Assembly: GCA_022763115.1 (NCBI GenBank)
Contig: JALEGJ010000151.1
Coordinates: 1 to 34,250 of the forward strand
Length of the DNA stretch: 34,250 nucleotides
Reading direction: 5' to 3'
Origin: Aquisalinus sp.
GTDB lineage: Bacteria; Pseudomonadota; Alphaproteobacteria; Caulobacterales; Parvularculaceae
A program made the translations under genes and the position numbers. The notes under the pieces were generated by a model, which had not been told where the DNA came from, ran no database searches, and saw nothing but the letters and a program-made list of their open reading frames with translations. Each line of letters starts with the position of its first letter. Position 1 is the stretch's first letter. Positions 2,739 to 34,247 of this stretch are shown one piece after another.

Positions 2739-5186
<2,448 letters not shown>

Positions 5187-5222
5187 TCAGAAAGTGATTG
5201 TTTGAGTCGGCAGAATGTACAC

Positions 5223-5246
5223 GAATTGGCCCGTCAGGTCCAATTC
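5223..5246. repeat. 7-bp inverted repeat in the gyrB upstream region
   Basis: GAATTGG and CCAATTC form a perfect inverted repeat separated by 10 bases, centred about 57 bases upstream of the gyrB start. A weak leftward promoter (TTGGAC, 18 bases, TACATT) overlaps it. The position would suit an operator for a gyrB regulator, but this is only a sequence observation. Confidence 0.4.
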
Positions 5247-5290
5247 ACCGGCCATTATTTTTGCAAGCAATTTCAGTATGTTAGAAAGTT

Positions 5291-5318
5291 TTTTAGGCAT
5301 TCTCCGAGATGCCTAAAA
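5291..5318. repeat. 10-bp perfect hairpin between the small membrane-protein gene and gyrB
   Basis: TTTTAGGCAT and ATGCCTAAAA are exact reverse complements around an 8-base loop (TCTCCGAG). The A/T ends of the arms could serve as part of a U-tract, so this may be a terminator for the leftward recF-fic-small-protein transcript that separates it from gyrB. No additional T run follows on the minus strand, so the role is uncertain. Confidence 0.45.
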
Positions 5319-5397
5319 CAGCCCGCCAAAGAGACTGTTATGAATAAAGGTTTCACCACCCCAAAAGGGCGTGGAACGCACGTTTGCTGACACAAAG

Positions 5398-5685
5398 TTA
5401 TTCCTGCACGACAATCACAACCGGTCTGAAAAAGCGATACAGCCAGATACCCAGCAGATTTAGCAGGCTGCCAATCGCAGCACCAAGCAGCAATACACCC
5501 GGCCATAGAATTATCATCGGCAACAACTGAATCAACACAACCCATTCACCTGTTATCAGAGACGCTACAACACCTACGAGCAGGAACGTCAGGAACAGCA
5601 CAATTGAGGAGATGAGCGCCCCCACAAAAAACAATTTGTAGATGCTGCTTAGGCGGATGTTTCCATCACTTACATTAATCTGCAT
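5398..5685 (-). CDS. Small hypothetical integral membrane protein
   Basis: I do not recognise the family of this 95-residue protein. It has two long hydrophobic stretches, at about residues 18-46 and 48-83, and a short polar N-terminus; the C-terminus is FRPVVIVVQE. Its ATG overlaps the last codons of the Fic gene (ATGCAGATTAATG, where the Fic reading frame ends in GAT TAA), and GGAGGGG lies just upstream inside the Fic gene. That arrangement suggests translational coupling to the Fic frame. A Fic-linked role is inferred only from position. Confidence 0.6.
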   Translation of the reverse strand: MQINVSDGNIRLSSIYKLFFVGALISSIVLFLTFLLVGVVASLITGEWVVLIQLLPMIILWPGVLLLGAAIGSLLNLLGIWLYRFFRPVVIVVQE

Positions 5686-6433
5686 TGTCCCCTCCGTTTA
5701 TTGCGATCTCTTTCGCTGTGTTCTCGAGATAATGGTCAAGACTTCGCCGAAGCTGCCCCGTCATGAATAACTCGTAGGGTCGAACCTCACCGGTTAAATG
5801 CCGCCGCTCAAGCACATCAATATAATCCGGCCGCACATCCGGACTGATGACCAGCGGCGGATAGCCACTGCGGAGCAGGATAAGGTTCATCAGCAGCCGC
5901 GCCGTACGGCCATTACCATCATCAAAAGGATGAATGGCAACCAGCTTGAAATGTGCTTCAATAGCTATTTGTGCTGTGGCGGTCTTCTCCGCCAGCCATT
6001 TTGCGAACGCTTCCATCAGTACAGGAATTTCCAGTGGCGGCGGCAAACTCACTTAAGAGCCGAGAATTTCCCGCTGCACAGTTGAGTAACGCCCCGCCTG
6101 ACCGGGATCAGCACGTCCTGTCACCAGCCGGTGTATCTCCCAAATATCAGCCTCACGCAGAACATCCGCCTTCACGGACAGTACGTGCACATAATCCAGC
6201 GCATCCTTGTGGCCGATGGCTTCCATATGATCTTTCAATGGCTTGCCACGCACGGTGATGCCTTTTTCAAGCACTAGTGAAGTTTCCGAGCGGGTCAATG
6301 TGTTCCCTTCAAGGGCATTGGATGTGTATGTCAGTTCGTGGTCATACCATGCCTCAAGCACCCGCAAGCTGGCCGCGGCCAGTGGCCGGCGCGCATCCAG
6401 CAGCCTTTTTTTCTGTTCAAGGTCAGACCACAT
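5675..6433 (-). pseudogene. Fic/DOC family adenylyltransferase interrupted by one in-frame TAA
   Basis: Fic proteins transfer AMP from ATP to target hydroxyls. Read leftward, 126 codons end at a TAA (6055-6053) and the same frame continues directly with GTG AGT TTG for another 125 codons. The two halves together look like one normal Fic protein: the N-terminal half has the class II inhibitory motif S38-NAL-E42-G43, and the C-terminal half has an intact catalytic motif HPFDDGNGRTAR (about residue 168 of the joined frame). The join reads REILGS-stop-VSLPPPLE, where families normally continue without a break, so a sense codon such as CAA probably mutated to TAA. It lies between recF and gyrB. 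It could be a pseudogene, a readthrough gene, a restart at the adjacent GTG giving an uninhibited catalytic half, or a sequencing error. Confidence 0.85.
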
Positions 6434-6457
6434 GAGAATATCTTATCATAAATACAA

Positions 6458-7591
6458 TCATTCAGACAGAGACAGGCAACTGTCCCGCACTTCAAAATGC
6501 TCTGCCCGCGCGCCCCAGGCCTCGAAAAGCTCCGCATCCGTTCCCGTCATGAAAGCCTGCATACCTGTATCATGCAGGATATCGAACAGGGCCGCACGCC
6601 GCCGCGCATCCAGATGCGCAGCCACCTCATCCAGCAACAGGATGAGCGGTGCACGGCTTTGGCCAGCCGCTGTAGCTGTTGCGTTGGCAAGCACGAGACC
6701 AATCAGCAACGCCTTTTGCTCGCCGGTTGAGCACAGTCTTGCAGCTTGTTGTTTTTCACGGTGCGTGACGAGCAGGTCTGAGCGGTGCGGTCCCTCAAGG
6801 GCGCGACCAGCGGCAGCATCGCGCCAGCGCGCCTGTTTGAGGCGTTCTTCATACGCCTCTTCCACGTCGCCAGCCACCTCCAGAACCAGCGCCTCTTCCA
6901 GCGTGCCTTCCAGGGCGAGATCCGCTGCCGGGAACACATCGCTGGCAAGGTGCTGTGCGCCTGCGGCCAGTCGCGCGGTCATCTCGCGCCGCGCCGCTGC
7001 CATGGCAACACCGGCCTCAGCCATCTGCCGCTCCAGTATGCCAAGTAATGTCTGGTCAGCTCTCGGCAGGTCTTCCAGCAGCTTCGTGCGCTGGCGCATC
7101 GCCTTCTCGTAAGTCGCCGCCGCCTTGCCATGGGCGGGGTCATGCGACAGGATCATGCGATCGAGAAAGCGGCGGCGCTCGGCAGCGCCTTCCATGAACA
7201 GGCGGTCCTGCGCCGGCGTCAGCCACTGAAAGCCGAGATAGTCAAGCAGGGTGGTCGGCCCCGATGCGGCCGAGCCATCAATCCGCACAATCCGTTTTTC
7301 AGGCACACCCGCCTCAACACCAACACCGAGCCTGTTCTCATCAAGGCCGTCGCTCAGGACTGCGGTGACTGTCCAGCCTCCGCTCCCCTGTTGTCGGGCA
7401 ATCTCACCCAGCCGCGCCCGGCGCATCCCGCGCCCGGCAGAGAGCATGGATAAAGCTTCCAGCAGATTGGTCTTGCCGGAGCCGTTGGCACCACTCAGCA
7501 CGACAGGTTTACCGCTGAGCGACAAATCCAGTCTCTCGTAAGAGCGAAAATCAGTCAGTGTGATGCGACGAATTGCCGGCGCCTCGGTCAT
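6458..7591 (-). CDS. recF: DNA replication and repair protein RecF
   Basis: RecF is an SMC-like ATPase that acts with RecO and RecR to load RecA at single-strand gaps. The 377-residue product starts ITLTDFRSYERLDL, has Walker A GANGSGKTNLLEA at about residues 34-46, the ABC-type signature CSTGEQKALLIGL near 286, and Walker B LILLLDEVAAHLD near 316. Length fits the family (about 360-380). It begins 16 bases after the dnaN stop and is followed after 24 bases by the interrupted Fic gene, so dnaN-recF-fic are likely one transcript. Confidence 0.97.
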   Translation of the reverse strand: MTEAPAIRRITLTDFRSYERLDLSLSGKPVVLSGANGSGKTNLLEALSMLSAGRGMRRARLGEIARQQGSGGWTVTAVLSDGLDENRLGVGVEAGVPEKRIVRIDGSAASGPTTLLDYLGFQWLTPAQDRLFMEGAAERRRFLDRMILSHDPAHGKAAATYEKAMRQRTKLLEDLPRADQTLLGILERQMAEAGVAMAAARREMTARLAAGAQHLASDVFPAADLALEGTLEEALVLEVAGDVEEAYEERLKQARWRDAAAGRALEGPHRSDLLVTHREKQQAARLCSTGEQKALLIGLVLANATATAAGQSRAPLILLLDEVAAHLDARRRAALFDILHDTGMQAFMTGTDAELFEAWGARAEHFEVRDSCLSLSE

Positions 7592-7606
7592 TTCCCGACC
7601 GCGCGA

Positions 7607-8722
7607 TCAGACCCGAAGCGGCATCAGCACATACAGCGCCTGCACATCCTCTTCGTCAGAGATCAGCGTTGGGGAGGACGGGTCCGCAAACTCAAACGTC
7701 GCCGTGTCGCCATCAATCTGCGAGGCCACGTCCAGCAGATATTTTGCGTTGAAGCCAATTTCCAGCGCCTCAGCGCCATAATCGACATTCAATTCTTCCT
7801 GGGCGCTGCCGGTTTCCGGGTTGTTGACGATCAGTTGCAAATGATCGCCTTCCAGGATCATTTTCACCGAGCGCGTCTTGTCAGCCGAGACGGTTGAAAC
7901 CCTGTCCACCGCCTTGGCGAAATCCGCCGTCTCGACTTTCAGGGTACGGTCATTACCGGAGGGGATAACACGCTGATAATCCGGGAAGGTGCCATCAATC
8001 AGTTTCGATGTCAGCGTGACAGAATCAAAGGTAAAGCGCACTTTCGCTTCAGAAACAGAAACCTGCACCTGTTCACCGGCATCATCCAGCAGGCGGCGCA
8101 ATTCCAGCACCGCCTTGCGGGGAATAATCACGCCGGGAATATTATCCGCACCATCCGGCAGCGGACTATCGAGGCGGGCAAGGCGATGGCCGTCCGTCGC
8201 TACGGCGCGCAAGGCGCGGTCCCCTTCCGTCACGGCATGGAAATAGACACCATTGAGGTAATAGCGGGTTTCCTCCTGTGACATGGCAAACCGTGTCTTG
8301 TCGATCAGGCGCTTCAGCTCTTTTGACGGCATGGAGAATTCCACGCCCTCATTGTCAACCGTCAGGCTCGGGAAGTCCTGATCAGGCAAAACAGCGAGGT
8401 TAAAATCCGACTTGCCCGCTGTCAGTTTGAGGCGGCCATCACTGCCTTCTGTATCGAGACGAACCTGCGCGCCCTCCGGCAGGCGACGAACGATTTCGTA
8501 AAGCGTCAGAGCAGATGCGGTAATGGCGCCAGCCTGTTCCACATCTGCGGAAACCTGTTCAGCTATCTCGATATCAAGATCAGTGGCCGTCAGGGCAAGG
8601 GCGTTGCCTTCTGCCTGCAACAGGACATTCGACAGGATCGGGATCGTATTGCGACGTTCGACGACGCTTTGCACGTGTCCGAGTGCTTTCAGAAATGTTG
8701 ACCGCTCAATTATGACCTTCAT
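7607..8722 (-). CDS. dnaN: DNA polymerase III beta sliding clamp
   Basis: The beta clamp forms a ring around DNA that tethers polymerase III and many repair factors. The 371-residue protein begins MKVIIERSTFLKALGHVQSV, contains the expected three clamp repeats (for example RRNTIPILSNVLLQ, FPDYQRVIPSGND) and ends with the canonical YVLMPLRV. I chose the ATG at 8722, because MKV is the usual clamp N-terminus and GGAGAG lies 10 bases upstream; a frame-extending ATG six codons earlier at 8740 is weaker. The 186-base gap to dnaA includes a possible leftward -10 (TATAGT at 8823-8818), so dnaN may have its own promoter. Confidence 0.97.
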   Translation of the reverse strand: MKVIIERSTFLKALGHVQSVVERRNTIPILSNVLLQAEGNALALTATDLDIEIAEQVSADVEQAGAITASALTLYEIVRRLPEGAQVRLDTEGSDGRLKLTAGKSDFNLAVLPDQDFPSLTVDNEGVEFSMPSKELKRLIDKTRFAMSQEETRYYLNGVYFHAVTEGDRALRAVATDGHRLARLDSPLPDGADNIPGVIIPRKAVLELRRLLDDAGEQVQVSVSEAKVRFTFDSVTLTSKLIDGTFPDYQRVIPSGNDRTLKVETADFAKAVDRVSTVSADKTRSVKMILEGDHLQLIVNNPETGSAQEELNVDYGAEALEIGFNAKYLLDVASQIDGDTATFEFADPSSPTLISDEEDVQALYVLMPLRV

Positions 8723-8908
8723 GCTCTTCGATCTCTCCATGGAACGCCACTTGCCAGGCTATTGCGCATAAGCAGGTGGGTCGTCAGAACGGGCACACGT
8801 CGCCCGCAGGGTGAGAGACTATAGACAGGCACGTCTCAGATAGAAAGCCCCGGCCTCTGCTTCTCGGGATAAATTTATGAACACCCGGAAGCGAAGACAG
8901 GCGGGCAT

Positions 8909-10441
8909 TTAGTGCTCGAACTCATCCATCAGGCTTGAGATAAGGTCACCAAAATGCGGATCTGTCTCGGCCAGCACCTCTGCCCGCTCAATGCTCGACA
9001 GCACTGTTGTATGGTCACGCGAGATGATCGCGCCGATTGCCTTCAAAGGGGCTGATGTCAGCCGCCTTGCCAAAAGGCAGAACGCGTGTCGACCGCGGGC
9101 AATGGGCTGCATCCTTTTACGGCCCATAATGTCGTGGGTGGACAGGTCAAAGGCTTCCGCGGTTGCACTCATCAGGTCTTCCAGCGATGTCTCGCGCGGA
9201 CGAGAGCTCAAATGACGGCGCAGCAGCTTGCGCACCTCAGCCTCGTCCAGTGTGGCCGTGCTGTCCTTTTCCTGCTCGGCGCGCGTATGAAGCCGGATCA
9301 TCTTGTAAGCCCCTTCCAGTTCCCGGATAGAAGCATCGCAGGATCGGGCAATCATCTGCAAAAAGGTTTCTTCACAGACAAAGCCGCCATGCGCAGCATC
9401 AAGAGCCGCCATCTGCTTGAGGATTTTCATCCGCAATTGATAATCAGGCTTGTCGATCGGTACACAGACGCCGCCGCCCATGCGATCTGTCAATCGTTGA
9501 TTAAGGCCGGTTTCGGCCAACCGTGACGGGGCGAGGGAGCCAGCGATCACGATGGTTTTGCCATACGCCAGAAGCCTGTCGATCAGGTGCAATAACTCAT
9601 CCTGTGTCGCTTTGCGACCGCGCAGCAGGTGGATGTCGTCAATCAGGATGATGTCCACCCCGTCCAGATAGTCGCGAAGGTCATTGACGTTCTTTGCCAA
9701 AACCGCCGTCACATAACCATTCAGCAGATTATCGTGAGTCAGATAGAGGACGTTGTCGTCCGGGCGACGCAGTTTCCAGTCATGGCCAATAGCATTCAGC
9801 AGGTGAGTCTTGCCGCGGCCCGACGAGCCGTAAACGAAAAACATATTGTCGTCCGATCCATCGACAATACTTCTGGCGCCAAGAAAAGCCACCCGATTGG
9901 CCTCGCCCAGGCAGAAGCGCTCGAAGGTGAAATCGGCATGCAGCGGAGACGCCAGGCTCGTGCCTGACGGGAGCGGGGCTGCCTGGCCTTCGCGCACAAG
10001 ATCATCTCGCCGTGATATTGTCGTCCTGCCGGCAGATACCTTTTCCGGCCCTGCCTGTCCGCTTGAAGACTTGCGGAATGTCTCTGCCATCTTGTGCGGC
10101 ATCGGTCCTGCACCACCGCCCGGAATGTCATCCTCGCGATATTCACTTGCACGCTGCGCGGTGTCATTCGCGTGCTGACGGATGCTCTTGATGCCGCGGA
10201 TCGAGATTTGCCCAATGGGGCCCATATATTTAGGCCATAATTCAAACATACCACGCGAATAATTTGCCGTGATGCGGGATGCGCAAAAAGCGGAGGGCGC
10301 ACCAATGACGGCGCTGCCATTCTGCACCCTGACAAGCGAAAGTGGCTTGAACCAGTGATCATAGGCCGCATTGCCATACCGCGCCTTCAAGGCTGTTTTG
10401 TACAAGTCGAATTTTTGCTGCAATTCCATATCGCCAGGCAT
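8909..10441 (-). CDS. dnaA: Chromosomal replication initiator DnaA (divergent)
   Basis: DnaA binds DnaA boxes at oriC and opens the duplex. The 510-residue product has a domain I (ALKARYGNAAYDHWFKPLSL), a long poorly conserved linker, the AAA+ domain with Walker A GSSGRGKTHLL near residue 205 and Walker B IILIDDIHLLRG near 262, and a C-terminal helix-turn-helix with SRDHTTVLSSIERAE near 477. It is unusually divergent: the normal GxxGLGKTH is GSSGRGKTH, the RLxSRF box is RLTDRMGG, and the usual PRQxAMYL stretch of domain IV reads ARGRHAFCLLARRL. Context (dnaN, recF, rpsT, mutM) supports it being the true initiator. The ATG is preceded by AGGGGA at 5 bases. Confidence 0.95.
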   Translation of the reverse strand: MPGDMELQQKFDLYKTALKARYGNAAYDHWFKPLSLVRVQNGSAVIGAPSAFCASRITANYSRGMFELWPKYMGPIGQISIRGIKSIRQHANDTAQRASEYREDDIPGGGAGPMPHKMAETFRKSSSGQAGPEKVSAGRTTISRRDDLVREGQAAPLPSGTSLASPLHADFTFERFCLGEANRVAFLGARSIVDGSDDNMFFVYGSSGRGKTHLLNAIGHDWKLRRPDDNVLYLTHDNLLNGYVTAVLAKNVNDLRDYLDGVDIILIDDIHLLRGRKATQDELLHLIDRLLAYGKTIVIAGSLAPSRLAETGLNQRLTDRMGGGVCVPIDKPDYQLRMKILKQMAALDAAHGGFVCEETFLQMIARSCDASIRELEGAYKMIRLHTRAEQEKDSTATLDEAEVRKLLRRHLSSRPRETSLEDLMSATAEAFDLSTHDIMGRKRMQPIARGRHAFCLLARRLTSAPLKAIGAIISRDHTTVLSSIERAEVLAETDPHFGDLISSLMDEFEH

Positions 10442-15460: not shown

Positions 15461-15760
15461 ATGTTTAAGGCACGATATATATCAGGCGCGCTCGCCGCAT
15501 TACTGGCAGTATTGCTGGTTGCAATGCAATCTGTGTCTTCAGCTCATGCCTTGCAACATGGTGATGAACCGCACGATCATGATGGTGTACCGTGTGCGGT
15601 ATCCATTTTGGCAGATCGCAATGTCGATCTCCTGCCTCAGGATAATGTATCTTTCTTGGCACCGGTTTTTGTCGAAGCCACATTATATCGGGCTTCGCTT
15701 GATCCGCTCGACTTTAGCCTGACCGCTAGCCCTTCAGCACGCGCGCCGCCAACAGCCTGA
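15461..15760 (+). CDS. Small exported His-rich protein (DUF2946-like) before ZnuD-like receptor
   Basis: The 99-residue product has a signal peptide (hydrophobic residues 8-22, likely cut near SSAHA at 26-30), a histidine/acid cluster HGDEPHDHDG at 33-42, one cysteine at 45 in VPCAVSILAD, and the C-terminal end ARAPPTA. Size, cysteine and the C-terminal APP suggest the loosely defined DUF2946-type small proteins found beside metal-related TonB receptors. It resembles the protein at 27100-27435. A likely role is periplasmic or membrane-side metal binding for the receptor that starts 80 bases later. The ATG has no ribosome site but may be the 5' end of the transcript. A longer frame that starts upstream at 14786 is antisense to the GT2 gene and not real. 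Confidence 0.7.
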   Translation: MFKARYISGALAALLAVLLVAMQSVSSAHALQHGDEPHDHDGVPCAVSILADRNVDLLPQDNVSFLAPVFVEATLYRASLDPLDFSLTASPSARAPPTA

Positions 15761-15840: not shown

Positions 15841-17949
15841 ATGTCTATCAAATCACTGCGCCTGACCAGCGCCACTTCTGCGCTTGTTTGCGCAACCCCT
15901 TTACTCTTCTCGACTGCACTTGCGCAGGAAAACGAAACAGAAGACGAGATTTTTGTTACCGGCTCACCAATCAACACATCTGTTGATGAAAGCCTTGTTG
16001 GTGTTTCCGTGCTGGATGGCGAAGAGCTTGCCAATCGCCTCAATGGTACAATCGGTGAAACCCTGAAATCAGAGCCGGGTGTTGCCTCGACCTTCTTCGG
16101 TCCTGGTTCAAGCCGCCCGATCATTCGTGGCCAGGGCGGTAGCCGTATCCGAGTGCTAGATAATGGTGTCGGTACAATCGACGCAGCCTCAATCAGCCCT
16201 GACCACGCCGTTGCTGCCGAGCCAGCCCTGGCTGAGCGTGTCGAGGTCGTCCGCGGCTCCGGCATTCTGCGTTATGGCTCTGGTGCAACCGGTGGTGTTG
16301 TCAACATTATTGACGGACGTATTCCAACAGAAGTTCCGGAAGATCGCATTGATGGTGTTCTGCGCGCAGGCACAACAACCGTTGATGACGGTACCGAGTT
16401 TGCTGGTGCAGCCAACATTCTTCTTGGCGAGACAGGCAACTCTAGCATCGTGCTGCATATCGAAGGCACATACCGCGACACGGACGACTATGACATTCCG
16501 GGTTTTGCGGAATCGGCCTTCCAGCGCGCTGCTGAAGAAGCTGAGGAGCATGGCGACGAAGAGGAAGAGGAAGAAGAGGAAGCACGTGATGTTCTCGAAA
16601 ATTCCTTTACGGAAACCGATACACTCGCGGCTGGCCTTTCTTTCATCTCGGACCGCGGCTTCATAGGCTTGGCCATCAAGCAGACCAACTCCGAGTATGG
16701 CGTCCCGGGTGGTCACCATCATCATCACCATGAAGAAGGTGAGGAAGAAGAGGAGGAAGAGGAAGAAGAAGAAAACGTCTTCATCGAACTCGAGCAGACC
16801 CGTTACGACCTGAATGGTGAACTCGCTCTTGACGGTGCAGCATTCGAGAAAATCAACATCTTCGCTGGCTATGCTGACTACGAGCATATCGAGTTTGAAG
16901 GACCCGGCGAGCGGGGCACGGTTTTCTCCAACGAAGGCTTCGAGACACGTATTGAACTGCTCCAGCGTCAGCGAGGCGAGTGGAAAGGGGCTGTTGGCCT
17001 GCAGTATAATGACAATGAATTCTCCGTCATTGGTGAAGAAGCCTTTGTCCCGCCAACAACTTCAGAGCAAATCGGCATCTATACGTTCCAGGAAACCAAT
17101 GTTGGTGACTGGCATTTTGAAGGTGCGGCGCGCTTTGAAAACACATCTCACACAGATGACACGAACAATATCGAACGTGAGTTTGATACGTTCAGCGTCT
17201 CTGGTGGTGCTGACTACCACATTAACGAAAGCTGGCGGATTGGTGGCACAATCTTCCGCACGGAACGCGCACCGGCAACAGAAGAGCTGTTCGCAAACGG
17301 TCCACATCTTGCCACCAACCAGTTTGAGATTGGCGACAACACACTGGATACAGAAACGGCCACGGGCGTCGAGGCAGCAATCCGTTTTGGGAATGATGTG
17401 GCGTCCCTGTCATTCAATGTGTTCCACACGTCCTATGATGACTTTATTTTCCTCGCGCCAACTGGCGGTGAAGAGGATGAGTTACCGATCTACACCTTCC
17501 AAGCAGCGGATACCGTTTTCCGAGGTTTTGAAATCGCTGGTGATGTCATTCTGAGTGACGACGGCAAAACCGTCTGGACAGCTGACGCAGTCCTCGAGAA
17601 AGTTGAAGCTGAAAAAGATGTCGTCAACAACGACAACCTGCCACAGATTCCACCACTCGGCCTGTTGGTTGGTCTGCAAGCTGAAAGCGACAGGCTGTCA
17701 GTACGCGGTGAAGTTGATTATGCTGCTGAGCAGAATTCAGTCGCCCCATTCGAACTGCCGACAGACAGCTACACAGCATTGAATGCGTTCATCACCTTCG
17801 CCCCGCTGCCATCGGATCCAACGCTGAAAGTTCGTGTGGCGGGTATCAACCTGACAGACGAGGAAATCCGTCAGCATTCATCTCCACTGAAAGCGCTCTT
17901 ACCTCAGCCGGGCCGGAACTTCCGCATTTCAGTGGAAAAAAGCTTCTAA
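15841..17949 (+). CDS. TonB-dependent outer-membrane receptor, ZnuD-like (zinc)
   Basis: This is a 702-residue outer-membrane gated channel. It has a signal peptide (cut near TALAQ, residue 29), a plug domain with IIRGQGGSRIRVLDNGVG and RVEVVRGSGILRYGSGATGGVVNI, a beta barrel, and a terminal phenylalanine (ISVEKSF). Two loop insertions stand out: an acidic tract at about 232-248 and HHHHHH at 292-297 followed by an acidic run to about 312. ZnuD-type zinc receptors carry His-rich and acidic loops like these. GGAGA lies 7 bases before the ATG. With the possible Zur operator and the small His-rich protein upstream, zinc import is the best reading; copper or nickel are alternatives. Confidence 0.88.
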   Translation: MSIKSLRLTSATSALVCATPLLFSTALAQENETEDEIFVTGSPINTSVDESLVGVSVLDGEELANRLNGTIGETLKSEPGVASTFFGPGSSRPIIRGQGGSRIRVLDNGVGTIDAASISPDHAVAAEPALAERVEVVRGSGILRYGSGATGGVVNIIDGRIPTEVPEDRIDGVLRAGTTTVDDGTEFAGAANILLGETGNSSIVLHIEGTYRDTDDYDIPGFAESAFQRAAEEAEEHGDEEEEEEEEARDVLENSFTETDTLAAGLSFISDRGFIGLAIKQTNSEYGVPGGHHHHHHEEGEEEEEEEEEEENVFIELEQTRYDLNGELALDGAAFEKINIFAGYADYEHIEFEGPGERGTVFSNEGFETRIELLQRQRGEWKGAVGLQYNDNEFSVIGEEAFVPPTTSEQIGIYTFQETNVGDWHFEGAARFENTSHTDDTNNIEREFDTFSVSGGADYHINESWRIGGTIFRTERAPATEELFANGPHLATNQFEIGDNTLDTETATGVEAAIRFGNDVASLSFNVFHTSYDDFIFLAPTGGEEDELPIYTFQAADTVFRGFEIAGDVILSDDGKTVWTADAVLEKVEAEKDVVNNDNLPQIPPLGLLVGLQAESDRLSVRGEVDYAAEQNSVAPFELPTDSYTALNAFITFAPLPSDPTLKVRVAGINLTDEEIRQHSSPLKALLPQPGRNFRISVEKSF

Positions 17950-27099: not shown

Positions 27100-27435
27100 G
27101 TGGGGCGCATTTGGGCATATCTGTTTGTAACGCTTTTTGTCGCATTCCAGACATATGCGGCAACGCATAGCCATGACCTTTTACCCAATTCTGCGGAACA
27201 TCATCACATTTATGCTGAAAACCATGAACCGGGGGATGGACAGGACGAGGACTTTCATCTCGTAATTGACTGTACCGTATGCAAAATTGCCTCGGCGGAA
27301 GATGAGCTCGTTACCCCGTCAAGTCCTCCGCTATTCAGCTTGTTGCACACTGCCAATGCGGGTGCAGAACATTGGGGTGAGCCACGGCGCCAGGCAATGA
27401 GTCTGACGCATGCACGGGCACCCCCTCTTTCCTGA
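27100..27435 (+). CDS. Small exported His-rich, CxxC protein (DUF2946-like) before TonB receptor
   Basis: The 111-residue product has a hydrophobic N-terminus (residues 5-20), histidines in THSHD and EHHHIYAENHE (22-42), a CxxC at 58-61 (DCTVCK), and ends ARAPPLS. It parallels the protein at 15461-15760 in its signal region, His/acid cluster, cysteine followed by a short acidic stretch, and ARAPP end. Start is GTG at 27100 with AAGGGGA 6 bases upstream. It lies 118 bases before the second TonB receptor. A metal-handling role on the periplasmic side is inferred. Confidence 0.68.
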   Translation: MGRIWAYLFVTLFVAFQTYAATHSHDLLPNSAEHHHIYAENHEPGDGQDEDFHLVIDCTVCKIASAEDELVTPSSPPLFSLLHTANAGAEHWGEPRRQAMSLTHARAPPLS

Positions 27436-27553: not shown

Positions 27554-29740
27554 ATGAAACTGACCAAAATCACGAGCCTGCTGTTGAGCAGCGCTGCTTT
27601 CGGCTCTACCGCAATCGCCTTCACCCCGTCTGCAATCGCCCAGAGTGGCGACGATGAAGCATCTTCAAACGACACTGTCGTGGTTATCGGCACGCGCCAG
27701 GCTTATCGCGGTGAGTTTGACCCGCTGGAGATCCCGCAAGCAGATCAACTTATAGATGCGGAGCTGCTGGAAAATGCCGGGGCACTTGACCTCAATCAGG
27801 CACTGGACCTTTCTGCGTCTGTTGCGCGCCAGAATAACTTTGGGGGGCTCTGGAACAGCTTTTCTATCCGTGGCTTCTCGGGCGATACCAACCTGCCAAG
27901 CGGCTTTCTGGTCAACGGCTTTAATGCCGGGCGCGGGCGCGGTGGGCCTCGTGATCTGGTCGGCATAGAATCTGTTGAAGTCCTTAAAGGGCCTCGCGCT
28001 GCCCTGTTTGGGCGTGGAGAGCCGGGTGGTACGGTGAACCTCGTCACCAAGCGTCCACAGTTCGGAACAGGCGGTTACATTCGCGGCACTATTGGCAGCT
28101 GGGATCAATACCGCGCCGAAGGTGATTACCAGACCGTTCTGGGAGATACTGGTAACTTCGGTCTGCGCCTGGTCGGCTATTACGAGGATGCTGAAAGTTT
28201 CAGAGAAACTGTCGAAACCCAGAAGATGGGCTTTTATCCGTCCGCTACGTGGGTCGCTTCCGACGATACGGTCATGACGTACGAACTTGAATATACCGCC
28301 TACGAACTGCCGTTTGATCGTGGTGTTGTCTTCTCGGAAGATTTTGGATTCTCACCGCGCGAGGTATTTGTTGGTGAAAACGTACCGATTGAAACTAAAG
28401 TCGTCGGGCATCAATTCGAGGCCGAACACGACTTTAACGAAAACTGGAGTTTCCTCGGCGGGCTGGGGTATCGTGAAACCAGCCTGGAAGGCGATGCGTT
28501 CGAGCCACAATTCGGCTCACGCCAGACGTTTTTTCAGGATGGAGAAACGATCTCGCGCTTCTTCAGGTCCCGCGATTTTGAGTCGGACTATCTAGTCCTG
28601 CGCGGCGAGATCGCTGGTGAATTCCAAACCGGCGACCTGCGCCATCGCCTGATTATCGGTGCCGACTATGATGAGTTTGATAACACCCTCAACATTGACC
28701 GTTATCGGACAAGGTTTTCTGGCGACATCAATAACCCGACAGAAGAGGAAATTTTCACGCACCTTCTCCTGAACGTGAATAATCCTGTGTACGGTATAAA
28801 CCTGAACCCGCCTGCGACACCAAACACGCGCCGCAACGAAGTCTTGCAAGGTTACGGGATCTATATTCAGGATCAAATTGACCTGACAGATAAGCTGCAG
28901 ATCCGGATTGGTGCACGCTTTGATGATTTCGAGCAGGATCTGACCGATTTCGACAATCCGACCCGGAAATCGTCGGATGATCGCGTTTCACCGCAATTTG
29001 GCGCTGTCTACCGTGTCAATGACGGCTTCAGCTTCTACGCTTCCTATGGGGAGGGCTACCGTCAACAGACAGGTGCTGATTTTGCAGGAAATCAATTTGA
29101 GCCAAACATTACCGAGTCTGCAGAAATCGGTTTCAAGGCTGATCTGGGCGAATTTTATGACAGTGTTGACGGCTCTATCGGTGTCACGGTCTTCCAAATC
29201 GATCAGAGCAACTTTCTCGTGAACGACGACAGACCTGAAGCGCAGGGAGGCTTCTTCCTGTTTACCGCAGGCGAGGCAGAAAGCACGGGCCTCGAGTTTG
29301 ACGCCAATCTCGAGTTTGAGAATGATCTCAGCCTCTGGGTTTCATATGCTTATATTGACGCCGAGTTCACCAACAGCTTTGCTGATGCGGATGGTTTCGG
29401 GTTCACCATTGATGCCGGTGACCCGCTCATCAACTCACCAGAAAACCAGCTGAATGTGCAGGTTGCCAAGGACTTTGATGTCAATGAAATGCCTGCCACT
29501 GTTGGTGGCGGTCTGCTTTACGTTGATGAACGTAATAGCTTTGTCGGCTCAGACTTTACCCTGCCGGACTACACTACCGTACGGGTGTTCGGCGAAGTGG
29601 AAGTTACTGACGGGCTCACCGTTCGTCTGGATGTGGACAATCTCTTTGATGAGACGTTCTATACGAACTCATTCGCAAACGTCTGGGTTGAACCGGGTAC
29701 GCCGCGTCGTTTCCGCGTTTCTGCGACTTACAACTTCTAA
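27554..29740 (+). CDS. TonB-dependent receptor (siderophore-type)
   Basis: This is a 728-residue outer-membrane receptor. It has a signal peptide (likely cut at SAIAQ, residue 30), a plug domain with SFSIRGFSGDTNLPSGFLVN and ESVEVLKGPRAALFGRGEPG, and a barrel ending in the aromatic SATYNF. The barrel repeats (YIQDQIDLTDKLQIRIGARF, FSFYASYGEGYR) match the ferric-siderophore receptor group (FhuA/FoxA-like). It lacks the poly-His and poly-Glu insertions of the ZnuD-like receptor. AAGGA lies 8 bases before the ATG. Siderophore, zincophore or other metallophore uptake are all possible; the DUF1826 and His-rich neighbours favour zinc starvation. Confidence 0.9.
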   Translation: MKLTKITSLLLSSAAFGSTAIAFTPSAIAQSGDDEASSNDTVVVIGTRQAYRGEFDPLEIPQADQLIDAELLENAGALDLNQALDLSASVARQNNFGGLWNSFSIRGFSGDTNLPSGFLVNGFNAGRGRGGPRDLVGIESVEVLKGPRAALFGRGEPGGTVNLVTKRPQFGTGGYIRGTIGSWDQYRAEGDYQTVLGDTGNFGLRLVGYYEDAESFRETVETQKMGFYPSATWVASDDTVMTYELEYTAYELPFDRGVVFSEDFGFSPREVFVGENVPIETKVVGHQFEAEHDFNENWSFLGGLGYRETSLEGDAFEPQFGSRQTFFQDGETISRFFRSRDFESDYLVLRGEIAGEFQTGDLRHRLIIGADYDEFDNTLNIDRYRTRFSGDINNPTEEEIFTHLLLNVNNPVYGINLNPPATPNTRRNEVLQGYGIYIQDQIDLTDKLQIRIGARFDDFEQDLTDFDNPTRKSSDDRVSPQFGAVYRVNDGFSFYASYGEGYRQQTGADFAGNQFEPNITESAEIGFKADLGEFYDSVDGSIGVTVFQIDQSNFLVNDDRPEAQGGFFLFTAGEAESTGLEFDANLEFENDLSLWVSYAYIDAEFTNSFADADGFGFTIDAGDPLINSPENQLNVQVAKDFDVNEMPATVGGGLLYVDERNSFVGSDFTLPDYTTVRVFGEVEVTDGLTVRLDVDNLFDETFYTNSFANVWVEPGTPRRFRVSATYNF

Positions 29741-29749
29741 TAACAAATT

Positions 29750-29780
29750 CGGGCGCCGGTTGAAATCGGCGCCCGTTTTT
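29750..29780 (+). terminator. Rho-independent terminator of the second TonB receptor
   Basis: CGGGCGCCG and CGGCGCCCG form a perfect 9-base stem with an 8-base loop, followed by five T. It separates the receptor transcript from the ABC operon. Confidence 0.93.
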
Positions 29781-29923
29781 GACTTCAAGGGCTCGTCTCA
29801 TGAAATCACCAATTTCGAGCTTTTTCAAAAACCAAGGCTGAGACATGGGAAGCGTAACTAACTCAAGATCAAGAGTTACCTTGATTAAATATTTATTCGA
29901 TACGGTTTCGGTGTTTGTACCTT

Positions 29924-29952
29924 TTACTGGGTGTAAATATAGTCAGTATAAC
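29924..29952 (+). promoter_or_regulatory. ABC operon promoter
   Basis: TTACTG (29924-29929) and TATAAC (29947-29952) are 17 bases apart, about 33 bases before the ABC ATPase ATG. A small inverted repeat (ATCAAG and CTTGAT, 29868-29885) lies upstream. No Zur-like palindrome is visible. Confidence 0.6.
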
Positions 29953-29984
29953 TCCTAACAAACTATTCACTACAGAGATTACTC

Positions 29985-30701
29985 ATGACAGAAATAGCCC
30001 TTAAAGCCGACTCTCTCAGCGTCTCCAGAGGGAGGGTGCCTGTCCTGTCAGACATCACCTTTGATGTCAGTGTTGGCGAGGTGTTCGCACTCCTTGGCGG
30101 GAACGGTGCCGGGAAATCAACCACCCTGCTGACATTCCTTGGCTTTCTGCCGCCCCGCTCTGGCAGCGTTACAGTGCTCAACAAGCCGGTTACGCAGAAT
30201 GTCGAATTCGTCCGGCAAAAGTCAGCCTACCTGCCAGAGGCGGCCAATCTTTATCCGCACCTGAATGCCCGTGAGAACATCAAATACTTTCTGTCACTTG
30301 CGAAAGTTCCACGCAGCGCTTCCGATATTGAGGCAGCCCTTGATGAAGTCAGTCTCGCAACAGAAGCAAGAGGAAGGCGCTTGTCGTCCTATTCCAAGGG
30401 TATGCGCCAGAAAGTGGCGATTTCGCTGGCGATTTTGCGTCAGGCGCCCGTTCTGTTTCTGGACGAGCCTACATCCGGCCTGGACCCTGTCGCGATTGAT
30501 GAGTTCAATCAGTTGATTACGAAACTGTCAGCAGCAGGAACGACTGTGCTGATGGTAACCCACGATGTTTACGGCGCATGTCAGATTGCCGGACGTGTCG
30601 GCCTGCTGAAAGCTGGCTCTCTGGTCGGTGTATTTGAAGCACCAGAAGGCGGGCAAATTTCGCCTGAAGAAGTGCATCGCGCCTTTGCCGAGGGGGCGTA
30701 A
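29985..30701 (+). CDS. ABC transporter ATP-binding protein
   Basis: The 238-residue protein is a complete ABC ATPase: Walker A GGNGAGKST near residues 38-46, Q-loop region VRQKSAYLPE, signature SYSKGMRQKVAISLA near 133, Walker B PVLFLDEPTSGLDP near 158, and the H-loop VTHDV. The YSKGM signature and YLPEAANLYPHL are typical of ABC-2 exporters of the NatA/CcmA type. It is followed after 3 bases by the first permease and should energise both permeases as a heterodimer. Confidence 0.95.
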   Translation: MTEIALKADSLSVSRGRVPVLSDITFDVSVGEVFALLGGNGAGKSTTLLTFLGFLPPRSGSVTVLNKPVTQNVEFVRQKSAYLPEAANLYPHLNARENIKYFLSLAKVPRSASDIEAALDEVSLATEARGRRLSSYSKGMRQKVAISLAILRQAPVLFLDEPTSGLDPVAIDEFNQLITKLSAAGTTVLMVTHDVYGACQIAGRVGLLKAGSLVGVFEAPEGGQISPEEVHRAFAEGA

Positions 30702-30704
30702 ATC

Positions 30705-32144
30705 ATGCAGTCATTGCTTATTATAGCTTCAGATGAATGGCGTTATTGGTCGCGATCAAAACTCGGGGCCGCTGCAGCCATACTGGCTTTTATCCTGATT
30801 TGTGTCTCTGTCTTCGCAACCACCAATCAGGTAGCGGCAGAAAAGGAAACACGCGAAGCTCTTCAACTTAAAGCCGAAGAAATTTTTCGCAGCCAGCCAG
30901 ATCGTCACCCGCACCGGATGGTACATTATGGCCATTATGTCTTCCGCACACCGGCACCGCTTGCAAAACTGGACCCAGGTGTTGATCCGTATACAGGTAC
31001 CGCAATTTTCCTCGAAGGCCATCGACAAAACTCCGCTACATTTTCTGCAAGCTATGATGGCGCCCAAGCCGGACCATTTGCACGCCTGACACCTGCCTTG
31101 GCCTATCAACTCCTGGTCCCTCTCATTCTCATCATAGTCGGGTTTGGGGCTGTTTCCCGCGAACGCGAGGCCGAGACCGATCGGCAATTGGTGACCTCCG
31201 GCGTTACGCCGGTTGAGATATGGGGAGGCAAAACCATCGCGCTTGCTGCACTGGCCGCATTGCTTCTGATCCCAATGCTTTTCGGCGTCGCTCTTTCAGG
31301 AGGGGCTCCAGCCGTGAGTGCGGCCTTTCTGGGCAGCTATATAATATACCTGCTGATCTGGATTTTAATGATCTCTGGTGCGTCGGCCTGGTGCAAGCGC
31401 CCCTCGACCGCTTTACTGGTCTTGCTGTCGGCATGGATAGCATTGTCCGTGCTTGCGCCAAGGATGGTGGCAAGTGCCGCAAACATTGCGATCCCCAGCG
31501 CCAGCCAGATTGAAGCTGACATGGATGTACTCGTTGCCTTGCGCGAAGTGGGAGACGGGCATAATGCAAATGATCCGGCGTTCGCTCGCCTGCGAGCCAA
31601 CCTGCTTGAACAATACGACGTCGAGACGGTTGAGGAATTGCCGATCAACTTTCGAGGAATGGTGGCCAAAACATCAGAAGAGCAACTGACTGCTATCCTG
31701 AATGAATACGCGGAGAAGCGCATGACACAACAAGTCGCGCAAACGGATTTTGTCCGGGCACTATCCTTTTTCTCTCCGTTCATAGCGCTTCAATCAGCGT
31801 CGATGACAGCAGCTGGAACGGACATCCGAACGCATCACAGGTTTTTGCGCGAAGCCGAGGCCGCGCGCTACGAATTTGTACAAGGCTTGAACGATGCTCA
31901 CGTCGAAAAACTTTCCTATGCTGATGACCTCAACCGAAACACGAGCAAAGAAGCATGGCGAAAAGCGCGCGTTAGTTCGGAGAACTGGCGTGTCCTTCAG
32001 GATTTCAGGTTTTCGCCTGATACTGCGAGCGAGCGAATTTCACGGATGGGCTTAACTGTCGGCGTTTTGTTCGGCTGGGCTCTGGTCATGGGCGGGATCG
32101 GCTTTATCGGTGCCCGGAGACTGTCGGAGGTGAAAAATGGATAA
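30705..32144 (+). CDS. ABC-2 type permease, DUF3526-like
   Basis: The 479-residue protein has a first membrane segment at about 18-38, a large extracytoplasmic part to about 130, then five or so segments (130-150, 168-190, 205-225, 235-255) and a last one near 452-472. The stretch FGAVSREREAETDRQLVTSG after the second segment is the ABC-2 coupling-loop pattern. A long soluble part at about 265-440 lies before the last segment. It overlaps the next permease gene by 8 bases. Together they look like a two-permease ABC-2 transporter; cargo is unknown. Confidence 0.85.
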   Translation: MQSLLIIASDEWRYWSRSKLGAAAAILAFILICVSVFATTNQVAAEKETREALQLKAEEIFRSQPDRHPHRMVHYGHYVFRTPAPLAKLDPGVDPYTGTAIFLEGHRQNSATFSASYDGAQAGPFARLTPALAYQLLVPLILIIVGFGAVSREREAETDRQLVTSGVTPVEIWGGKTIALAALAALLLIPMLFGVALSGGAPAVSAAFLGSYIIYLLIWILMISGASAWCKRPSTALLVLLSAWIALSVLAPRMVASAANIAIPSASQIEADMDVLVALREVGDGHNANDPAFARLRANLLEQYDVETVEELPINFRGMVAKTSEEQLTAILNEYAEKRMTQQVAQTDFVRALSFFSPFIALQSASMTAAGTDIRTHHRFLREAEAARYEFVQGLNDAHVEKLSYADDLNRNTSKEAWRKARVSSENWRVLQDFRFSPDTASERISRMGLTVGVLFGWALVMGGIGFIGARRLSEVKNG

Positions 32145-33393
32145 TATCATCCGAGAACTTCGTTTTTCCCTGCGCGATCCCGTTGTTGCGCTAACACTCC
32201 TGGTAGGTGTTTTGTTGTCGGCCTTCACGGTGTTTAGTGGTCTGAAAGAGGTCGATACAGAACGGGCTCAAATTGAGCGCGTCAAGCAGATGGTAGACGA
32301 TGATCGCACCTACGCTCTCGCAGACCAAAGCGATGCGGGTGGCGCGGCTTACTATGCTTTCCACTTTACCTATGCGCCCCCTTCGGATCTGGCATTCGCC
32401 GCCCGGGGTGTTCGGGACGACTTACCCTGGAAGCATCGTATCCGGATGCTTGCGCTTGAAGGGCAGATTTATGAGACAGATGCTGGCAATCCAGAGCTGT
32501 CACGGATCGGCAAGTTTGATTTCGCTTTCTTTGCGGCATTTTTGCTACCGCTTCTGATGATCCTTCTCCTGCATGATTTGAAAGCTGCCGAGGTTCGGAA
32601 TAACCGATGGGCTTTTTTGTCGGCAACAGGTGGTGACGGCGGGCGCCTCCTGTTGAGCCGTGCCGTGCTTCGAGCGATCCTGTTATTCGCCTGCATTATT
32701 ACGCCTTTCTTGGCAGGCGTGATTGTCAGCACGGCCAGCCTGATGAGTGCTGTGGTCGTTTGCGCGGTTATCGGATTGAATTTGGCGTTTTGGCTGGTTC
32801 TGTCCTTGTTTACCACAAGCCGGATACAATCCGGGCCAACTGCAGCAGCGTTGCTGCTCGGCGCGTGGTTCACGCTCACCGTCGCCTTGCCTGTCGGCGG
32901 AAAACTCATGGTTGAACAGTCGGTTCCCGTACCGATGGGCGGCGAAATCCTCCTCACCCAGCGGGAGGCCGTGAATGATGCATGGGACCTCCCGCGCGAG
33001 GCAACCCTGAAGCCGTTTTACGAGCGCCACCCCGAATGGGCCAACGCCGAGCCTGTCAGCGAAGGCTTTGATTGGTACTGGTATTATGCGTTTCAGCAAG
33101 TCGGCGACCAAACCGTAGAGAGCATGTCCGAAGCCTTGCGCGATGGTGTAGCCGAACGGGACAAAGCCATGGCGATGATCGCCCTGACGTCACCACCCTT
33201 ACTCGTTGACCGCGTGATGTCACAACTGGCGATGACCGATATTGCCGCGTTCCAATCTTACGACCAATGCGTCCGGGATTTCCATGCAGCTCTGCGCGCT
33301 TTCCACTATCCGATGCTGTTCGGGGGGAAGGAGTATTCTGCGGAAGCAATGAAGGAGCTCCCGACGTTTAGGCCCTGTGCGTCCAATAGTTGA
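32137..33393 (+). CDS. ABC-2 type permease, DUF3526-like
   Basis: The 418-residue second permease has the same plan: a segment at about 14-32, a soluble region, then segments near 130-148, 172-195, 200-222 and 230-250, with LLLHDLKAAEVRNNRWAFLS as the coupling-loop equivalent. Its C-terminal 165 residues are soluble with no final membrane segment visible, unlike the first permease. The ATG overlaps the first permease stop region by 8 bases, so translation is coupled. DUF3526 permeases occur in pairs with one ATPase. Confidence 0.85.
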   Translation: MDNIIRELRFSLRDPVVALTLLVGVLLSAFTVFSGLKEVDTERAQIERVKQMVDDDRTYALADQSDAGGAAYYAFHFTYAPPSDLAFAARGVRDDLPWKHRIRMLALEGQIYETDAGNPELSRIGKFDFAFFAAFLLPLLMILLLHDLKAAEVRNNRWAFLSATGGDGGRLLLSRAVLRAILLFACIITPFLAGVIVSTASLMSAVVVCAVIGLNLAFWLVLSLFTTSRIQSGPTAAALLLGAWFTLTVALPVGGKLMVEQSVPVPMGGEILLTQREAVNDAWDLPREATLKPFYERHPEWANAEPVSEGFDWYWYYAFQQVGDQTVESMSEALRDGVAERDKAMAMIALTSPPLLVDRVMSQLAMTDIAAFQSYDQCVRDFHAALRAFHYPMLFGGKEYSAEAMKELPTFRPCASNS

Positions 33394-33411: not shown

Positions 33412-34071
33412 GTGGATTTGAAGATTATGGTAGCTATTCTGGAACCGGCAAAACCAGTCAGGGGGCGTAATAGTCGTCCTATTATCGAAGGTACGTCTAC
33501 GGAAGTTCTCGACAAGGTTTTGCGCCCTGCCACCGGCCTTGCTATTTGGCGCAGACAGCTCTCACCTGCTGTAGCCGCTGCTGCCCGAGGTCTGTGCGAT
33601 AAGCTGGTATGTGAGACTTACTCTTTGCCTGCTGCTCAGGCAGATACCTTCAATAAAAAGACTTCGCTGCAACTTTTACCTGACGACATTATTGAGGACT
33701 TGCACACACTCATGAGGTTGTATCGCGGCATCACAAAGGCGGACCGGGTTTCACTCCGACTGGAAACAGTAACGGATGATGGCTGTCGACGCTTTCACAT
33801 CGACAATGTGCCATACCGTATGGTGACAACTTATTGCGGCATGGGAACACAATGGGTTTTACCAGGTGATGAACAAGCTGCGTCGGTCCAACAGGAAAAC
33901 TATGCCGGGGAACTTGGCACGTTGCACGAAGGGGATGTCGCCTTGTTTCGGGGAAAGAAATCCGTGGGACACGGCGTACTCCACCGCTCCCCTCAATTAC
34001 CAGCAGGTGCCAGGCGACTGGTTTGTGTGATTGACGCAATAAAGAAAACTCAACCCATGACCCACGAATAA
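33412..34071 (+). CDS. DUF1826 protein with a 2OG-Fe(II) oxygenase-like HxD...H...R signature
   Basis: The 219-residue protein matches DUF1826 (CRRFHIDNVPYRMVTTYCGM, GTQW, EGDVALFRG, HRSPQLPAGARRLVCVID), a family linked by genome context to Zur regulons and COG0523 metal chaperones. The conserved residues fall in the order H129-x-D131, Y141, H191, R201, with a typical 60-residue HxD to H spacing and R ten residues after H. That is the pattern of 2-oxoglutarate/Fe(II) oxygenases, so the protein may be a DSBH enzyme. Start GTG at 33412 or ATG at 33427; neither has a clear ribosome site. It lies 18 bases after the permease gene and probably belongs to that operon. Confidence 0.85.
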   Translation: MDLKIMVAILEPAKPVRGRNSRPIIEGTSTEVLDKVLRPATGLAIWRRQLSPAVAAAARGLCDKLVCETYSLPAAQADTFNKKTSLQLLPDDIIEDLHTLMRLYRGITKADRVSLRLETVTDDGCRRFHIDNVPYRMVTTYCGMGTQWVLPGDEQAASVQQENYAGELGTLHEGDVALFRGKKSVGHGVLHRSPQLPAGARRLVCVIDAIKKTQPMTHE

Positions 34072-34156: not shown

Positions 34157-34247
34157 TGGCGGACAGAGAGGGATTCGAACCCTCGAGACGGAGTTACCGC
34201 CTACACGCGTTCCAGGCGTGCGCCTTCGACCACTCGGCCACCTGCCC
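34157..34247 (-). tRNA. tRNA-Ser (anticodon GGA), CCA encoded
   Basis: Read leftward, the gene starts GGGCAGGTGGCCGAGTGG, has anticodon stem CACGC/GCGTG with loop CTGGAAC (GGA, reading UCC and UCU), a long variable arm (GGCGGTAACTCCGTC), the T-loop GGTTCGAATCC and ends CCGCCA. The acceptor stem has G-U pairs at positions 3 and 7. Ninety-one bases with CCA is normal for a class II serine tRNA. Confidence 0.97.

Follow-up and report, generated by a model that had tools for sequence, protein, structure and literature searches.

DUF1826, a protein family tied to zinc limitation, is predicted to be a divergent family of 2-oxoglutarate/Fe(II)-dependent oxygenases

The open reading frame at positions 33412-34071 (plus strand) of the window, by which we mean the whole 34,250-nucleotide stretch of DNA that was analyzed, encodes a protein of 219 amino acids that Pfam assigns to DUF1826 (PF08856) and that AlphaFold2 and fold matches in the PDB predict to be a 2-oxoglutarate (2OG)/Fe(II)-dependent oxygenase. 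It is the last gene of an operon on the plus strand, in which it follows the genes for an ABC transporter ATP-binding protein (ZnuG-like, 29985-30701; Pfam ABC_tran), an ABC-2 type permease with DUF3526 (ZnuH-like, 30705-32144; Pfam) and a second permease with DUF3526 (ZnuI-like, 32137-33393; Pfam), all three of which have relatives at two further loci, L262 and L286. The GTG start codon of the DUF1826 gene lies 18 nt past the end of the second permease gene, and an alternative in-frame ATG is found at 33427. Upstream of the operon, a TonB-dependent outer-membrane receptor is encoded on the same strand (27554-29740; Pfam TonB_dep_Rec_b-barrel and Plug). The boundary between the two is marked by an intrinsic-terminator-like hairpin (29750-29775, plus strand; 11 pairs, 9 of them GC, then TTTTT), which is conserved in the sister genome.

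Several other features of the window were recorded. The gene of a small DUF2946 protein (27100-27435; E = 6e-6) directly precedes the TonB receptor gene, and a short, similar-looking open reading frame with no Pfam match (15461-15760) precedes the gene of a second TonB receptor (15841-17949), which carries His- and Glu-rich loops. Judged by their translations, dnaA, dnaN, recF and gyrB lie in a row on the minus strand (2739-10441), and the window is therefore probably located near the chromosome replication origin. A tRNA-Ser (GGA) gene (34157-34247, minus strand) lies about 90 nt downstream of the DUF1826 gene, at the contig end.

The run of ATPase, two permeases and DUF1826 is kept in a congener (L262), with 97, 91, 86 and 66% identity, respectively, and the receptor has a relative with 88% identity there. 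At L286, in a genome from a different family (G127), the DUF1826 gene is located directly 3' of a gene for a TonB receptor with 34.5% identity to that of the window, the two open frames overlapping, and znuG-H-I-like genes (46, 40 and 36% identity to those of the window) are divergent. This type of neighborhood is rare, being found in 3 of the 53 DUF1826 genomes searched (the window's, L262 and L286). The TonB receptor was considered as a general DUF1826 partner and rejected; the large neighbors elsewhere are peptidases M3, M28 and M14, PhoX and catalase. Peptidase M3 genes were observed near DUF1826 at three loci (L263:5247-7499, L264:3694-5904 and L270:10730-12778).

Pfam hmmscan assigned residues 29-208 of the window protein to PF08856 (E = 3.2e-39), which bears out the family identity given to this frame by an earlier note on the DNA. 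No second Pfam family was detected in the protein, even at E = 10, and NCBIfam held no model for it. Because of the length of some DUF1826 open frames, which reach 612 aa, fusion to other domains was considered as well; this was rejected, Pfam finding only DUF1826 in them. The family is present in 47 of 398 genomes sampled phylum-wide and in 24 of 200 sampled genomes of the same order, and the viral contigs searched contained no relatives.

Residue conservation was analyzed in an alignment of 149 sequences, made up of 69 distinct proteins and 80 loci added from a gammaproteobacterial sub-alignment. The added loci are all from Pseudomonas, so they lend the alignment depth and not breadth; its homologs reach down to about 21% identity. 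An HxD motif (H129, D131), a TTY stretch (139-141), GDVALF (174-179) and H191 are located where the earlier note had placed them. The same note had asked whether H129, D131, H191 and R201 are invariant. The two histidines and the aspartate are each conserved in 148 of 149 homologs, the lone exception being a gapped row that is probably the degenerate member L046. The arginine had been placed one residue too early: position 201 is R in just 101 of 149 homologs, and the true invariant arginine is R202 (149/149; codon 34015-34017, plus strand), 11 residues past H191. Strand VIII begins with this arginine, which is the predicted binder of the 2OG C5 carboxylate. The HxD codons, coding for two predicted Fe(II) ligands on strand II, span 33796-33804 on the plus strand (H129, 33796-33798; D131, 33802-33804). 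The distal predicted ligand, H191 (33982-33984), opens the family signature HRSP on strand VII (H191-R192-S193-P194; 33982-33993, plus strand), with H, R and S each at 148/149 and P at 146/149. The softer motifs fared unevenly: T140 and Y141 are conserved at about 96% and G174 at about 91%, but D175 of GDVALF is variable, E being commoner there.

Further positions are characteristic of the family. R116 (codon 33757-33759, plus strand; on strand I, 112-120) and R136 (33817-33819, plus strand; start of strand III) are arginine in 149/149, and R116 is a possible contact for the co-substrate or the substrate. G143 and G181 are likewise at 149/149. A cysteine, C125 (33784-33786, plus strand), is found four residues ahead of HxD in 148/149; to our knowledge, an invariant cysteine beside HxD is unusual among such enzymes, and one may speculate that it could tune metal choice. 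In an alignment of 52 sequences, about 11 columns are invariant and include all four predicted catalytic positions, which is far from chance. One divergent member (L046:4928-5632) has neither HxD nor the distal His nor Cys125, and it is probably a decayed or repurposed copy.

The earlier note had also asked whether the protein folds as a double-stranded beta helix. Two AlphaFold2 models, one from the window protein with 51 relatives (pLDDT 89.1, pTM 0.84) and one of a Pseudomonas member (pLDDT 94.1, pTM 0.89), both show this fold, with an N-terminal helical part followed by the eight core strands, and the solved structures nearest to them are those of 2OG/Fe(II) oxygenases. DSSP of both models puts HxD on the short strand II (H129 in the window protein, H132 in the Pseudomonas protein) and the distal His on strand VII (H191 and H199), while the Arg opens strand VIII (R202 and R210). 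This distribution over strands II, VII and VIII is the canonical layout of 2OG/Fe(II) oxygenases.

Foldseek searches against the PDB gave best E-values of 1.6e-7 for the window model and 2.8e-6 for the Pseudomonas model, with 289 and 227 matches, respectively, at E<=1e-3; the matches listed all belong to 2OG oxygenases or near relatives of these, with plant small-molecule oxygenases at the top. With VIA-align, the window model matched 6lnh (Z 11.8, 3.3 A over 163 residues) and the Pseudomonas putida P4H 4j25 (Z 11.7, 2.9 A over 147 residues), and the best match of the Pseudomonas model was 4j25 (Z 11.3, 3.0 A over 147 residues); the typical best Z of models with no clear match is 7 to 8. Chains at Z>=8 numbered 538 for the window model and 453 for the Pseudomonas model, and among the 50 matches listed per model all are 2OG/Fe(II) oxygenases or structural homologs thereof, P4H/PHD2 being intermixed in rank with other 2OG hydroxylases. 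Identity in the structural alignments with 2OG oxygenases is about 8-16%. The last aligned residue pair is 219/392 in many PHD2 alignments of the Pseudomonas model and 211/392 in that of the window model with 6nmq, which sets R210 and R202 level with PHD2 R383, provided that the final nine residues align gap-free. R383 is the residue through which PHD2 is known to bind 2OG.

A kinship with succinylglutamate desuccinylase is stated for family members in other bacteria in one paper (PMC5786701). The sole Pfam match of the window protein is DUF1826, even at E = 10, and the predicted fold is an oxygenase-type beta helix; we rejected this kinship and give it practically no chance.

Comparisons at the level of sequence were negative. 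Neither phmmer nor a profile of 52 DUF1826 sequences retrieved an oxygenase from the PDB sequences. With hhalign, none of PF13640, PF03171 and PF13532 gave a significant match, a cupin control scoring at least as well, and in hmmscan the window protein did not match the 2OG-FeII_Oxy_3 profile (PF13640, PKHD/P4Hc including CciO/PiuC) at E-values up to 10. Many true members of the 2OG oxygenase superfamily escape profile searches. Since the sequence-only searches failed, the kinship rests on the fold together with the invariant residues, and Pfam still labels DUF1826 as unknown because the kinship is invisible to sequence profiles. The predicted fold and the invariant active-site residues support the reading as a 2OG/Fe(II) oxygenase that had been suggested from the first inspection of the DNA, and the models point to DUF1826 as a new, sequence-divergent family of this well-known superfamily. 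The more specific label of the earlier note, an oxygenase of the prolyl-hydroxylase type, was not established, given that no 2OG profile matched and that plant small-molecule oxygenases head the Foldseek matches. With no profile link, and with small-molecule, prolyl and other hydroxylases all matching about equally, the subfamily cannot be named. In the literature searched, mostly excluding subscription papers and partly available as excerpts, we found no prior oxygenase proposal for DUF1826; an earlier proposal is possible.

To investigate the gene neighborhood across genomes, CobW_C (PF07683) was searched in 65 DUF1826-bearing genomes, comprising 68 DUF1826 loci. A gene for a COG0523 metallochaperone-type GTPase was located within 3 kb of DUF1826 at 40 of the 68 loci, always on the upstream side and on the same strand in 35 of the 40, usually with some 140 nt separating the domain ends. 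At 25 of the loci with no COG0523 neighbor, the recurring families included ABC-3 (ZnuB family, 4 proteins), MerC (4) and FUR (2). Genes for MerC-domain membrane proteins (mercury resistance family) lie directly 3' of DUF1826 at three such loci (L268:2532-2969, L270:7486-7878 and L272:8586-8996), and a MerC-domain protein is possibly a second DUF1826 partner. In the genome of the window (G000; assembly 95.6% complete), no CobW_C gene was found, only a marginal cobW match.

Two further explanations involve the commonest neighbor. One would see the protein as a carrier of the oxygenase/cupin fold with no oxygenase activity, a zinc/iron chaperone or sensor that would use H129, D131, H191 and perhaps C125 to bind a metal exchanged with the COG0523 GTPase. 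The invariant cysteine four residues ahead of HxD and the tight neighborhood with a metallochaperone-type GTPase speak for it, as does the suggestion, in a 2025 proteomics preprint (PMC11761036), that the Pseudomonas aeruginosa member PA5534 may be a Zn-sparing paralog or a Zn-chaperone. A carrier would have no need of R202, an invariant residue that aligns with the Arg by which PHD2 binds 2OG, and the whole canonical residue set is retained; we regard a metal helper as unlikely. The other explanation keeps an active 2OG oxygenase and has it hydroxylate a protein (the partner GTPase, a client metalloprotein or a ribosomal/translation protein), by which zinc allocation would be changed. It draws on COG0523 being the commonest neighbor and on top structural matches that include PHD2 and the P. 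putida P4H, the latter solved in complex with EF-Tu. Small-molecule oxygenases match equally well, however, and the genome of the window has DUF1826 but no CobW_C gene, so ZigA cannot be the sole substrate. We hold a protein substrate to be possible, with the balance leaning somewhat against it.

A link of DUF1826 to zinc is also found in published data. DUF1826 appears in a figure of Zur-regulated COG0523 clusters in Haas et al. 2009 (PMC2770081), and the Francisella member FTN_1758 was identified by RNA-Seq in a Zur study (PMC5786701). In P. aeruginosa, N-acetylcysteine induces PA5534 along with zigA and other zinc genes (PMC9431628), and the 2025 preprint, which offers the above suggestion as a guess, lists PA5534 as zinc-responsive and "not annotated" (PMC11761036). 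These papers agree with the earlier note, which described DUF1826 as a family with no annotation beyond "unknown" and with a tie to zinc starvation. According to two of them, PA5534 clusters with dksA2, folE2, a gamma-carbonic anhydrase and pyrC2 (PMC11761036, PMC9431628). This company would suit an iron-dependent protein that takes over from a zinc enzyme, a zinc-sparing role like that of FolE2 and DksA2. Known stand-ins, however, are paralogs or analogs of the enzymes they replace, and DUF1826 matches no zinc-enzyme family; nor is it obvious which of the zinc enzymes concerned oxygenase chemistry could replace. We consider zinc sparing very unlikely.

In the window, two consensus forms of the Zur box yielded chance-level matches, with TGTTAYNNNRTAACA at or below chance, and a genome-wide scan found 22 sites versus 14 in the control, which is barely above. 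At L286, a Zur-like palindrome, TGATATAATGTATCA (L286:5732-5746; 0.18 expected by chance), lies before the TonB receptor-DUF1826 pair and the divergent znuGHI-like genes. As no Zur box in the window stands above chance, we infer the zinc control of its DUF1826 gene. Overall, the tie of DUF1826 to zinc limitation is strong, though not universal.

Considering class and zinc link jointly, we consider it likely that DUF1826 is a divergent family of 2OG/Fe(II) oxygenases of zinc-limitation regulons, as predicted from the models. The protein would be cytoplasmic, H129, D131 and H191 would hold Fe(II), and R202 would anchor the C5 carboxylate of 2OG. Going by the fold and the invariant residues, the enzyme would use O2 and 2OG to oxidize, most likely to hydroxylate, a substrate. 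It would act in the response to zinc limitation, a link that expression data in the literature show for some relatives and that the gene neighborhood shows here, most often beside a ZigA-type COG0523 GTPase and, in the window's genus and one distant family, alongside a TonB receptor and an ABC transporter of the ZnuGHI kind. The role that we prefer, tentatively and granted that the protein is an oxygenase, is the oxidation of a ligand by which zinc is carried or withheld, upon which the metal would be released or retained in the cytoplasm; this is proposed by analogy with CciT-CciO and PiuA-PiuC. The main alternative to such a ligand would be a protein substrate linked to the COG0523 GTPase. 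A bolder variant would have the oxygenase gated by zinc: C125 together with H129, D131 and H191 would let Zn(II) shut the site at high zinc, and under starvation Fe(II) would load, leading to modification of a zinc ligand or of the COG0523 GTPase. We rate this gating as a long shot. If true, it would constitute a post-translational zinc switch alongside Zur.

DUF1826 is a very frequent neighbor of COG0523/ZigA-type genes and is reported to be induced by zinc starvation, in P. aeruginosa among others, yet its P. aeruginosa member had no annotation in the preprint of 2025 (PMC11761036). The predicted Fe(II)/2OG oxygenase would give this zinc-starvation gene a concrete and cheaply testable activity. 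If the prediction is true, the low-zinc response uses an iron enzyme with O2 and 2OG, and zinc allocation would be coupled to the status of iron, oxygen and central carbon.

Compared with known 2OG oxygenases (P. putida P4H 4j25, PHD2/EGLN1, Bacillus thuringiensis IDO 6lnh and plant dioxygenases), the DUF1826 models are alike in the beta helix, the placement of the residues and the N-terminal helices. In contrast to these enzymes, HRSP at the distal His, the Cys before HxD and the invariant R116 and R136 are features of DUF1826, and the Arg follows the distal His after 11 residues instead of the 9 in PHD2. CciO/PiuC/YbiX resemble the family as 2OG oxygenases in a metal-starvation setting, DUF1826 being likewise a predicted cytoplasmic one. 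They are encoded next to a TonB iron receptor, and a TonB receptor also neighbors DUF1826 in G127 and in the genus to which the window belongs. They are Fur/iron-controlled and of the PKHD type, whereas DUF1826 is tied to zinc, is unmatched by the PKHD-type profile and is found more often beside a COG0523 GTPase. The outer-membrane receptor CciT has a strict requirement for CciO, a cytoplasmic 2OG dioxygenase (PMC12004947), and DUF1826 would offer a zinc counterpart to this iron pair, whose logic is still unsolved.

The nearest known counterpart of the genes at 27554-33393 is Caulobacter znuK/znuGHI (CC1517-CC1520), which is Zur-repressed (PMC4176598) and, as a comparison of domain make-up indicates, likewise combines a TonB receptor with an ABC-2 ATPase and a pair of ABC-2 permeases. 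A Zur site is shared there by the receptor and ABC genes, which are read on opposite strands (PMC4176598), whereas in the window they run in the same direction, with a terminator between them and no evident Zur box. Table 1 of the Caulobacter paper (PMC4176598) does not contain DUF1826, in which the window operon ends. P. aeruginosa PA5534 and Francisella FTN_1758 belong to the same Pfam family as the window protein, and published expression data connect them to zinc limitation or Zur (PMC9431628, PMC11761036, PMC5786701). PA5534 adjoins zigA, whereas the window member closes a ZnuGHI-like operon.
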